Assembly (NCBI GenBank): GCA_003142475.1
Contig: PLMK01000076.1
Coordinates: 7,285 to 42,874, forward strand
Direction of reading: 5' to 3'
Source of the DNA: Ignavibacteriota bacterium
Lineage (GTDB): Bacteria > Bacteroidota > Ignavibacteria > UBA10030
Length of the DNA stretch: 35,590 bases
The first letter of the stretch is position 1. The number at the start of each line of letters is the position of its first letter. The position numbers and the translations under genes were made by a program. Of the stretch, positions 17,758 through 26,446 are shown piece by piece. The notes beneath the pieces were generated by a model that was given only the letters and a program-made list of their open reading frames with translations, was not told the DNA's origin and did not search any database.

Positions 17758-19881
17758 TTATTTAAGCAAAACTAATTTTTTCGTTTCTGTAAACGAACCA
17801 GTCTGTAAGCGATAAATATAAGTGCCGCTCGATAGTTTCGAACCGTCTAACATTGCTGAATAATATCCAGCTTCTTTTTCCCCATTCACCAATGTTGCGA
17901 CTTCACGCCCGCGCATATCGTATACTTTCAGGCTTACACTGCCGCCTTTTTGTAACTGATAGTTAATTGTTGTCGTCGGATTGAATGGATTAGGATAATT
18001 TTGACTTAGCATATAGATGTTCGGAATGGTTGTCGTAACTACCGTTGTGACTGCCGTCGTTACTAAGACCTCAGCCTCACCATTGTATTGAAAACCTCCA
18101 TCAGTATCTACGGATTTCAGTCTATAGAAGATACTTCCGCTACTGACATTCTTTAGACTGTCTACATACACATAGCTTCGCGGTGCATTGGTTGTCCCAC
18201 CTGCAGGTATCTCACCTATACTTTCCCATTGAGCGGCTGTACGACGCTCAATTACATACGAATAACTGTTGACCTCTGTTGCTGTATTCCAATCCAATTC
18301 AACCGTATTACCTTTTGTCACTGCATTGAATGAAGTTACTTCTACTGGAAGAGGGATGGCAATGGATGACCATGTCGAATTTGTTTCAAGTCCTGTGGCA
18401 GTTTGAAATGCTGCAAGAGTCGCATACTGTTTCAAACTAGGCCACGCTCCTGTGTACCAAGTTGCATTGCCACTGCCACAGTAGGAATTGCCACTCATTG
18501 TTACACCCGTCGTCGTCCAGACATAGGCATATCTTGACGAACCATTATTATACACCTGTACTTGATTACCTGTAACAATTGCGGTTCCACCATTTATATT
18601 AGCTTCAATATCAATCGCGCCACCATTCATTCCAAAGTTAATTAGAGTGTTATTCGTCACTCTTGTTACATTATAGTCCGAAGCAACGTCTATTCCTCTA
18701 CCATAAGTGGGCGATTGGCCTGTAATAGTATTATTGTAGATCGCTATATTTTTTCCCATACCAAAGACACCCTCTTGGGCGTAGAAATTACAATATCGCG
18801 TTGTATCTGATTGATTATAATAGGCATCTACAGCACCATAAACATTTTTGCACCAACAATACTCAATCAGCGTCCACTTACCTGTGGTATAATCAGTTGT
18901 TCCTTCACTACCGAAAGCATTTTTTTCAGCTCCGTGAGTGTATACGCCTCTGACCGTATCAGTTACTTGATTAACGCTATCATATCGAAAAATCGTCCGC
19001 TCGGATTGCGTTTGATAATATGCTGTATATCCAGCAGTATCTACTCTGCAAGAATCAATGAGATTGTTTTTACCGCGCAAATCATATATTCCGTATCCGC
19101 AAACATTTCGAATCTTTATTTGTCTTACTGTGACTGAAATATCATCAGAAAGTCCGATACCATTACTTGTTCCTTGAAATTCTAAATCACGAATCATCAT
19201 AGGATGCACATTGCTTACACCTGATACCATTCCACCTTGCAAGGCAAATACAATCGGACCTACCGCACCATTATCGTGTGTATGATAATAAAGTGTGTCT
19301 TGTATTAATGTTGGGCCCGCGCAACCTGCTGCAAGATTATTAAGCCATGTATTAAGATCAGGTGTTACATCACCAGCACGCGTAACCGCAGTATATACGC
19401 CATTTATCTTTTCATAAGCATAATAAAGATAAGAACTACCAACAAAGGTTTTATAATATCCAGTCCGACCAGGTATTGCTTGCCAAGTATTTTTCCTCAA
19501 ATCTCCAACAAGAATCGGTTTTGCTCCTGTTCCATAAGCGCCAATGAATGAAGGATGTTCGATACCTGTGCTTGCACTAATATTAAAAGCGCCACTGATA
19601 GTATCACCACGTTTGAACAATAAACTATCACCTTGATACCAATGCGGTGTTGCCCAATTGTAGCCAAAAAGAGATGTTGGGTTGGTAGTTTTCCAAGGCG
19701 TTGCAGGAGAAGTGCCATTGTTGGCATCATTTCCGCTTGACGAAACATAATAATTAGTACCAGCGAGAGCTGGGATAGCAAATAGCATTAAAATTAGCAC
19801 TCGTTTAAGTCTGGTCTCACCAATAGTTTGTAAAACCATTGAAAGATTGGTTAAAAAAGGCATTAATCGATTTTGTAACAT
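17758..19881 (-). CDS. Secreted parallel beta-helix protein with T9SS type A sorting domain
   Basis: A 707-residue exported protein. The ATG at 19881 is supported by AAAGGAGTGAG just upstream. This gives an unusually long n-region before the hydrophobic signal segment (RVLILMLFAIPALAG, ~27-41). The mature part begins YYVSSSGNDANNGTSPATPW, typical of right-handed beta-helix (pectate-lyase/poly-lyase-like) proteins; beta-helix-like turns run to ~residue 500. A linker (LPVEVTSFNAV, WNTATEVNSYSYVIERR) and a C-terminal sorting domain (YPNPFNPTT, RLQTGSFTETKKLVLLK) follow. Type IX export is known for this domain. Glycan binding or cleavage is inferred; I see no certain catalytic residues. Confidence 0.85.
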   Translation of the reverse strand: MLQNRLMPFLTNLSMVLQTIGETRLKRVLILMLFAIPALAGTNYYVSSSGNDANNGTSPATPWKTTNPTSLFGYNWATPHWYQGDSLLFKRGDTISGAFNISASTGIEHPSFIGAYGTGAKPILVGDLRKNTWQAIPGRTGYYKTFVGSSYLYYAYEKINGVYTAVTRAGDVTPDLNTWLNNLAAGCAGPTLIQDTLYYHTHDNGAVGPIVFALQGGMVSGVSNVHPMMIRDLEFQGTSNGIGLSDDISVTVRQIKIRNVCGYGIYDLRGKNNLIDSCRVDTAGYTAYYQTQSERTIFRYDSVNQVTDTVRGVYTHGAEKNAFGSEGTTDYTTGKWTLIEYCWCKNVYGAVDAYYNQSDTTRYCNFYAQEGVFGMGKNIAIYNNTITGQSPTYGRGIDVASDYNVTRVTNNTLINFGMNGGAIDIEANINGGTAIVTGNQVQVYNNGSSRYAYVWTTTGVTMSGNSYCGSGNATWYTGAWPSLKQYATLAAFQTATGLETNSTWSSIAIPLPVEVTSFNAVTKGNTVELDWNTATEVNSYSYVIERRTAAQWESIGEIPAGGTTNAPRSYVYVDSLKNVSSGSIFYRLKSVDTDGGFQYNGEAEVLVTTAVTTVVTTTIPNIYMLSQNYPNPFNPTTTINYQLQKGGSVSLKVYDMRGREVATLVNGEKEAGYYSAMLDGSKLSSGTYIYRLQTGSFTETKKLVLLK

Positions 19882-24649: not shown

Positions 24650-26446
24650 ATGAAAGTAATCATTTTCTTTTTACCTTCTATCTGTTTTATTAATTTTATA
24701 TTTGCCCAGACAGGATCGCAAATTACGACGACTATAACGTCAGAAAACGAATTTATTGTTAATATAGATCATACTCTTCATCTTCAGTATGGATGTATGT
24801 ATCCTATGACATACCAATTGGATATTCCTTCAGGATTAAGCGGATTGCTTGCTCAACGAAAATATTCAAGTGGTGATAGCTGGAGCCCACTCCAAGAAAA
24901 AACATCAGCGGACACTTTTAATGCCATAGAAGCAGTGCGGTTTGACTACACTAACAATAGAGCGTATGTCTCAGCCGCGTTCTCTCCAACTAGCGATTAT
25001 CTCTTTATTCGAATTATGAATGGTTCAAATCCAATTACACTGACCTTTAGTGGAATAAGTAAGTACTACGATAATCGCGTTGCTGCGGTAACTGTAAGCG
25101 CGGACGATTATTCTTCTTCTGATTATGTTTACAATTCAATTCCTTTGTATCCTCCATTACTCGATATTTTTCGTTCATATAAACTGTATGTCACTGTTGG
25201 CATCGTCACAAGTTATACTGACTCGAATGGCTGGTTAGTTATGCAGCAACAATTAGATACTGGATACGTAGAAGCTGCTTCACATAGTCGTATCCATGGA
25301 TTTACTCCATATGCCGATCCTATTGGCGAGGTCGTGGGAAGTCATAATGACATCCTTGCTAATCTTACACTTCCTGAGCTTTTTCGCTCAGGAAGCCAAG
25401 GATATGTCTATACTTGGATTGCTCCACATGGGTATGATGATACAACAGTCGAGCGACTGGTTGGCGTAGCTGGATATCTTGTATCAAGGCTTTACACTGG
25501 TATACCTAAAGATCCTATACGTGAAAATATATACGGCGATTCTACATTTGCTGCTTGGGATGCTCAGCGAAACCATTTTGTACCTTTCTGGCCCTCTCTG
25601 GAAATTGGCGCACCGGATTGGGGTGGAGGAGATACCAGTTTAACATCATTAAATGGATTCTTTGATGCCGTTATTGCATGTGGTGGCATCTATCATTTTA
25701 TGTGGCATCCGCAGGTCATCTTTGCAGATCGTGACTCATGGTATTTTCGAAATCATTTAGAGCATATCAGCCAACGGAAGAATATATGGTATGTAAATCT
25801 AGGGCATCTTTATCTTTATCATTTGCTTCAAATTTCTGACGGAGTACTTCCCGTTGAATTGTCTGAATTTACTGCTTCTTCTCTTGGAACTTCTATTGAA
25901 TTAAAATGGACAACTGCCACAGAAGTGAATAATTATGGTTTTGAAGTAGAACAGAGAATTATCAGAGATCAGTCTCAAGGTAGCATGAATTGGAAGAAGA
26001 TCGGATTTGTTAAGGGTGCCGGCACGAGTAATATAAAGCATACGTACAATTATTTAGATTCAAAACTTCAAAGTGGCCGTTACGCTTATCGTTTGAAACA
26101 AATAGATAATGATGGAGCTTTCAAATATTCTCAGAGTGTGGAAGTAATGGTTGACGCGCCCAAGATTTTTTCATTGAGACAAAACTATCCCAATCCTTTT
26201 AATCCTTCGACTTATTTTTCGTTTGATATTCCATCAAATGCTTATGTTTCTCTAAAAGTATTTGACCTTCTTGGGAGAGAAGTCGCATCACTTATTTCAG
26301 AGAAAATGAATGCTGGAACATATACGCATCAATGGAATGCCTCAGGTTTTCCAAGCGGAGTTTATTTTTATCGTTTACAAGCTTACCCCGACGTAGTCGG
26401 GGCAGGTTCGTTTACAGAAACAAAGAAACTCATGTCGCTGAAATAA
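24650..26446 (+). CDS. Secreted polysaccharide deacetylase-like protein with T9SS type A sorting domain
   Basis: A 598-residue protein with a signal peptide (hydrophobic to ~18, cut near Ala19). An N-terminal beta-rich domain (~30-135) is followed by a divergent NodB-like domain: VTVSADDYS (Asp152, Asp153), SHSRIHGF (His212, His216), WIAPHGYDD (~256-264) and FMWHPQV (His353) occupy the positions of the CE4 motifs. The usual linker (LPVELSEFTAS, WTTATEVNNYGFEVEQR) and a sorting domain (YPNPFNPST, SGVYFYRLQA) follow. Seven residues, YPDVVGA, interrupt the sorting domain and come from a palindromic insertion. The assignment as a deacetylase rests on motif order and is not certain. No clear ribosome site is seen. 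Confidence 0.75.
   Translation: MKVIIFFLPSICFINFIFAQTGSQITTTITSENEFIVNIDHTLHLQYGCMYPMTYQLDIPSGLSGLLAQRKYSSGDSWSPLQEKTSADTFNAIEAVRFDYTNNRAYVSAAFSPTSDYLFIRIMNGSNPITLTFSGISKYYDNRVAAVTVSADDYSSSDYVYNSIPLYPPLLDIFRSYKLYVTVGIVTSYTDSNGWLVMQQQLDTGYVEAASHSRIHGFTPYADPIGEVVGSHNDILANLTLPELFRSGSQGYVYTWIAPHGYDDTTVERLVGVAGYLVSRLYTGIPKDPIRENIYGDSTFAAWDAQRNHFVPFWPSLEIGAPDWGGGDTSLTSLNGFFDAVIACGGIYHFMWHPQVIFADRDSWYFRNHLEHISQRKNIWYVNLGHLYLYHLLQISDGVLPVELSEFTASSLGTSIELKWTTATEVNNYGFEVEQRIIRDQSQGSMNWKKIGFVKGAGTSNIKHTYNYLDSKLQSGRYAYRLKQIDNDGAFKYSQSVEVMVDAPKIFSLRQNYPNPFNPSTYFSFDIPSNAYVSLKVFDLLGREVASLISEKMNAGTYTHQWNASGFPSGVYFYRLQAYPDVVGAGSFTETKKLMSLK
26384..26404 (+). repeat. 21-base palindromic in-frame insertion
   Basis: CCCCGAC (26386-26392) and GTCGGGG (26396-26402) form a perfect seven-base hairpin around GTA. 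The 21 bases encode YPDVVGA between RLQA and GSFTETKK. The beta-helix protein of this window reads RLQTGSFTETKK at the same place, without the extra residues. The insert keeps the reading frame. It looks like a small mobile palindromic element of the kind that inserts inside genes. Confidence 0.75.

Follow-up and report, generated by a model that had tools for sequence, protein, structure and literature searches.

How does a perfect DNA palindrome come to lie, in frame, within the C-terminal sorting signal of a secreted bacterial protein? The question is raised by a 35,590-nucleotide stretch of an Ignavibacteriota genome (hereinafter, the window), in which the translation of ORF 24650-26446 contains the seven residues YPDVVGA between the peptides YFYRLQA and GSFTETKKLMSLK. 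An earlier note on this DNA had attributed these residues to a palindromic 21-bp insert in an otherwise conserved T9SS C-terminal signal, and this description holds for the sequence, for the reading frame and for the profile matches of the C-terminus, which scores 35.6 bits with TIGR04183 (cut-off 23), as is characteristic of a T9SS type A domain, and 33.9 with PF18962 (cut-off 27). Over the passenger domain of the same protein, no Pfam family scored above its own cut-off; by eye, this domain resembles a polysaccharide-deacetylase-like protein (VTVSADDY...SHSRIHG). The coordinates of the relevant features are collected in the table.

Table. Features of the window and of the loci compared with it
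Feature	Position	Strand	Basis
598-aa protein with C-terminal T9SS type A sorting domain, host of the insert	24650..26446	+	ORF, profile matches
C-terminal sorting domain (mean pLDDT 86.5)	26162..26443	+	AlphaFold2 model
Near-identical tract (90-97%) with the end of the T9SS gene of G000 C39; putative exchange tract	26352..26442	+	identity profile
Penultimate beta-strand, model residues 66-76	26357..26389	+	AlphaFold2
21-bp in-frame insert TACCCCGACGTAGTCGGGGCA coding YPDVVGA (residues 75-81, turn)	26384..26404	+	sequence, translation, paralogue comparison, model
Left arm CCCCGAC	26386..26392	+	sequence
Right arm GTCGGGG (loop GTA, 26393-26395)	26396..26402	+	sequence
Last beta-strand, residues 84-92, part of the C-terminal motif	26411..26437	+	AlphaFold2; PMC11285876 for the motif
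Insert-free paralogous T9SS tail YIYRLQTGSFTETKKLVLLK, end of ORF 17758-19881(-)	17758..18009	-	translation
tRNA/GIY-YIG modules	L113 1420-1920 (own genome C26); L014 1164-1600; L082; L030; L008; L124		

The palindrome, CCCCGAC-GTA-GTCGGGG, occupies positions 26386-26402 in frame and forms a perfect 7-bp stem with a 3-nt loop. Hairpins of this geometry are common by chance when any base composition is allowed (3.1 expected in the window, 4 observed); with at least six G/C in the stem, the window contains one, and 30 simulated windows contain none. The fixed 17-mer does not recur elsewhere in the window. The insert is flanked by GCTTA and CAGG; neither a convincing target-site duplication at CAAGC...GCAGG nor a consistent terminal tag on the insert was found. 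The sequence GTTTA was considered as a general tag of the hairpin and dropped because the search pattern had partly selected for it and because intergenic copies lack it.

The structural context of the insert was examined using an AlphaFold2 model of the sorting domain built with 45 relatives. The modelled domain is a seven-stranded sandwich that ends with the strand 84-92, the strand architecture of T9SS type A domains; it shares with this type (TIGR04183, PF18962) the Ig-like sandwich and the retained C-terminal strand but differs in the seven additional residues of the beta6-beta7 turn. In the model, YPDVVGA lengthens precisely this turn of the last beta-hairpin and leaves the last strand untouched. 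A Foldseek search with the domain yielded no match at E<0.001; PorU of P. gingivalis was among the matches. In P. gingivalis mutants, the C-terminus and the beta3-beta4 loop are essential, and other loops differ in length (PMC11285876). Secretion is presumably left intact by the insert, which would be neutral for a signal that still works.

The own genome (3.58 Mb in 81 contigs), which probably belongs to the Ignavibacteria to judge from what its nearest tails are called, encodes about 99 T9SS tails of this kind, and insert-free tails are among them. The tail that the earlier note named as ancestral is indeed YIYRLQTGSFTETKKLVLLK, which closes the ORF on the opposite strand of the window, and two further insert-free tails (L041, L042) retain the empty site CAAGCTGGTTCG, with CAAGCT|GGTTCG against CAAGCT-[21 bp]-GGTTCG in the window. 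When up to 2 mismatches were allowed, the palindrome was found in this genome as one exact copy and one single-mismatch copy, both at the identical T9SS site; the second insert-bearing gene (G000 C39) reads YRLQV-YPNVVGA-GSFTETKK, and among the approximately 50 own-genome tails that were read, none beyond these two has the insert. The other insert-bearing gene that had been sought exists, at the same site, and the palindrome is not unique in the genome, whereas uniqueness, together with the presence of the seven residues in all orthologues, is what the earlier note would have taken as evidence against its reading; the wide dispersal over many genes that it had envisaged, however, gives way to a low copy number, with both copies in T9SS tails.

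The comparison of the two insert-bearing genes is suggestive with respect to the route of the second copy. The tails are 60-70% identical upstream, 90-97% identical over approximately 26352-26442 and 67% identical past the stop codon, and such near-identity of ~90-bp ends within otherwise diverged genes indicates that the insert probably reached the second gene by short-tract exchange between T9SS tails. Only three tails are 87-92% identical to the end of the window gene. Constraint on the peptide is an incomplete explanation of this patch of identity, given that the L043 tail, which has nearly the same end peptide, is only 73% identical to the window tail in DNA. Four copies of CCCGACN1-8GTCGGG are present in the own genome, and a 400-kb sample of it contains no dispersed family of GC-rich hairpins, a CRISPR-like array aside; given this and the near-confinement of the palindrome to two T9SS tails, recent mobility is not established in this genome. 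The CRISPR-like array (L377, C26:149332-156045) consists of about 102 repeats with a period of ~66 bp, and its repeat includes CGCGCCCGCATGGGGCGCG.

So do the relatives provide the missing dispersal? The orthologues of the passenger domain in five other genomes (42-62% identical) have different tails, without the insert wherever the tail is readable; this alignment, which the earlier note had proposed, is in line with its expectation but is weak evidence by itself because the tails differ altogether. In a sister species from the same genus, this site contains a diverged copy whose loop is AGA (YRLQV-YPDRVGA-SSF). Furthermore, the search of relatives that had been suggested along with the alignment revealed related hairpins dispersed in sister genomes: CCCCGACN1-6GTCGGGG is present in 34 of 61 relatives, with up to 24 copies in a genome of the family (1 match for the reversed-pattern control), and the six genomes examined from the genus contain CCCGACN1-8GTCGGG 48 times in total, with up to 16 copies per genome (reversed control, 0). 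These CCCGAC-N-GTCGGG hairpins are mostly intergenic or belong to tRNA/GIY-YIG modules, the intergenic ones standing alone, beside tRNA fragments or nested in other repeats, e.g. GTCATTGCGA[hairpin]GCAATCTC. In one sister genome (L356, near 501), a copy of tRNA-Asn has an anticodon arm whose 3' side is replaced by the hairpin TCCCGACGAAGTCGGGA.

The turn itself turned out to host palindromes that are unrelated to the one in the window. A class-wide search that included the T9SS context identified three genomes in which this turn contains another hairpin, CCCGCNAANGGCGGG, and a survey of long turns, with a pattern that did not specify a palindrome, added TCCTGAATCAAATTCAGGA, TAACGCAACAAGGCTTGTTGCGTTA and CCCTTCGACAAGCTCAGGG. 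The prediction derived from CCCTTCGACAAGCTCAGGG, that this unrelated palindrome would recur in frame at the turn, was borne out: 18 tails from 11 of 391 genomes of the class, representing 9 genera, contain CCTTCGRCARGCTCAGG in frame at this turn. All 18 tails use a single reading frame, with the palindrome 13 or 10 bases before ETKK, and the reversed-pattern control gave 0 matches. In an 800-kb sample (21%) of one such genome, selected in part so that known cases would be covered, the palindrome has four copies, all of them in the turn and none elsewhere; three insert-bearing tails of this genome are each closer to an insert-free tail of the same genome than to any of the other insert-bearing tails compared, which points to repeated arrival. 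Codon shuffling of the surveyed long turns singled out 4 of 44 at p<=0.01, a moderate signal that comes in part from related tails of one family; the pattern test of CCTTCGRCARGCTCAGG across the 391 genomes is the stronger evidence. The peptides encoded by the palindromes (YPDxVGA, YPANGG, DPSTSSGQ, DPESNSGQ) would all be turn-forming. It is tempting to generalize that the beta6-beta7 turn is a recurrent landing site for several unrelated palindrome families across the class, each read in a frame that yields a turn peptide and spread through the secretome by tail recombination, but we put this forward tentatively, with somewhat more doubt than confidence.

For the locus in the window, the scenario that we consider likely is more specific, namely, the in-frame insertion of a REP-like palindrome into a tolerant turn of a T9SS domain followed by spread via tail recombination. 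Under this scenario, a short palindrome of the CCCGAC-N-GTCGGG class of this lineage would have entered, in frame, the turn that joins the last two strands. The 21 bp amount to seven codons, with the Y-P-D-x-V-G-A frame providing turn-forming residues, so that the fold and the C-terminal motif would survive. Short-tract recombination among the ~99 paralogous tails would then have carried the altered gene end to at least one other T9SS gene, and the same turn would tolerate, and repeatedly receive, other palindromes in related bacteria. The observations behind this scenario are the in-frame insert, the empty sites, the second copy at the same site, the patchy identity, the dispersal of hairpins in relatives and the unrelated palindromes at the turn; a mobile mechanism of insertion, perhaps involving a Y1/RAYT-type transposase, and recombination as the means of spread are inferred from them.

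If a transposase was involved, could the T9SS insert be simply one intragenic REP, mobilized by a RAYT (Y1_Tnp) of the lineage, with CCCCGACNNNGTCGGGG as the putative substrate hairpin? Y1_Tnp genes are present in all 12 genomes checked, hairpins of this design adjoin some of those in relatives (CCCCGACATGAATGTCGGGG at L153 and L158, CCCCGACGCAAGCGTCGGGG at L145), one of the weak Y1_Tnp matches in the own genome has a related hairpin, TCCCGACTTCATCGGGA, at a distance of ~320 bp, and intragenic REPs are on record (PMC3733652). The RAYT-flanking hairpins, however, are mostly 20-mers with longer stems whereas the insert is built on a 17-mer with a 3-nt loop, neither a GTAG nor a CGTC tag adjoins the insert, and, in the own genome, REPs are nearly absent and the Y1_Tnp matches are limited to two weak ones, which makes the mobilization of the insert in this manner unlikely, although to be taken seriously. 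Hairpin-flanked, RAYT-like Y1_Tnp genes were seen at L145, L146, L147, L149, L153, L158 and L172, with a hairpin sequence that differs by gene. A different source is suggested by modules in which a complete tRNA (Asn, Leu or Ser) is followed by a GIY-YIG ORF, the hairpin CCCGACNNNGTCGGG and a partial copy of the tRNA 3'-half, sometimes in tandem; these look like a tRNA-targeting mobile element, and nothing relevant to them was found in the literature. An origin of the insert by copying of the hairpin end of such a module into a T9SS tail would fit with the own-genome module, where the hairpin TCCCGACAGAGTCGGGA follows tRNA-Asn (those of relatives are located at tRNA-Leu and tRNA-Ser), with the loop AGA that the module hairpin shares with the T9SS insert of the sister species, and with the GTTTA that precedes both the T9SS copies and the hairpins of the tRNA-Leu modules. 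Nevertheless, the two settings share nothing beyond the hairpin and a handful of bases, and many intergenic copies have neither a tRNA nor a GIY-YIG neighbour, so this derivation appears quite improbable.

The remaining alternatives dispense with a mobile element. Replication template switching makes or perfects inverted repeats, and the palindrome could have arisen in place by this route and been kept as a good coder of a turn. The variation among lineages in the palindrome found at this turn and the direct repeats TCGTTTACA on both sides of the insert site, as expected of slippage-prone DNA, are compatible with such an origin, which nonetheless leaves unexplained the recurrence of the same palindrome families in intergenic DNA of relatives and is, accordingly, rather unlikely. 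Alternatively, the seven residues might be a native, selected variant of the loop, the palindrome being incidental or acting as a hairpin of the mRNA close to its 3' end. This turn does include natural long loops that have no palindrome, and the hairpin of the insert is stable as RNA; the clean empty sites, the presence of unrelated palindromes in this turn and the scattering of the same DNA through non-coding regions argue against this possibility, to which we assign very little probability.

How, then, does the insert compare with known systems? Most known cases of palindromic DNA in working proteins come from Rickettsia and Wolbachia, where the affected genes are usually single and scattered. 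The insert shares with the palindromic elements of these bacteria the in-frame location in coding genes, whose protein products apparently continue to be made, as well as the occurrence in intergenic regions. The likeness to the rickettsial elements (RPEs) drawn in the earlier note stands insofar as the palindrome is in frame and absent from homologues; it does not extend to membership because RPEs are 105-146 bp long and are found in many unrelated conserved genes (PMC2229807), as opposed to 21 bp and, within 2 mismatches, only two T9SS tails. REPs are closer in size, being palindromes of 20-40 bp with stems of 5-13 bp and short loops, mostly intergenic and some intragenic, and related hairpins flank Y1_Tnp genes of relatives; unlike in the REP/RAYT systems (PMC3733652), the insert has no GTAG/CGTC tag, GTAG merely spanning the loop and the right arm, and its genome has a low copy number and no strong RAYT. 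By analogy, then, the insert appears to resemble RPEs and intragenic REPs in its working, with membership in neither established. In agreement with the earlier note, which knew of no description for this lineage, the literature searched (Ignavibacteria, CCTTCGACAAGCTCAGG, palindromes in T9SS domains) contained none.

What is new here is a recurrent, structurally defined site. Because each genome contributes roughly 100 paralogous tails, one defined and tolerant position can be compared many times over, and such comparison could measure the entry of palindromes into coding DNA, the frames that survive and the rate of gene-end exchange among secreted proteins. For annotation, it is a warning that motifs such as PSTSSGQ in T9SS tails derive from DNA palindromes. 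Two further observations concern the tails of other genomes. In G034 and G039 (L398, L399), several T9SS tails of one family contain VTQxGxLRY coded by near-perfect palindromes around GTAACGCAA...TTGCGTTAC, and these words recur in intergenic repeats of that genome. In G211, three insert-bearing T9SS tails (C1:915657, 2759056, 2762150) have a hairpin of the form CCCTCTCC-NNN-GGAGAGGG at ~80 bases from their palindrome.
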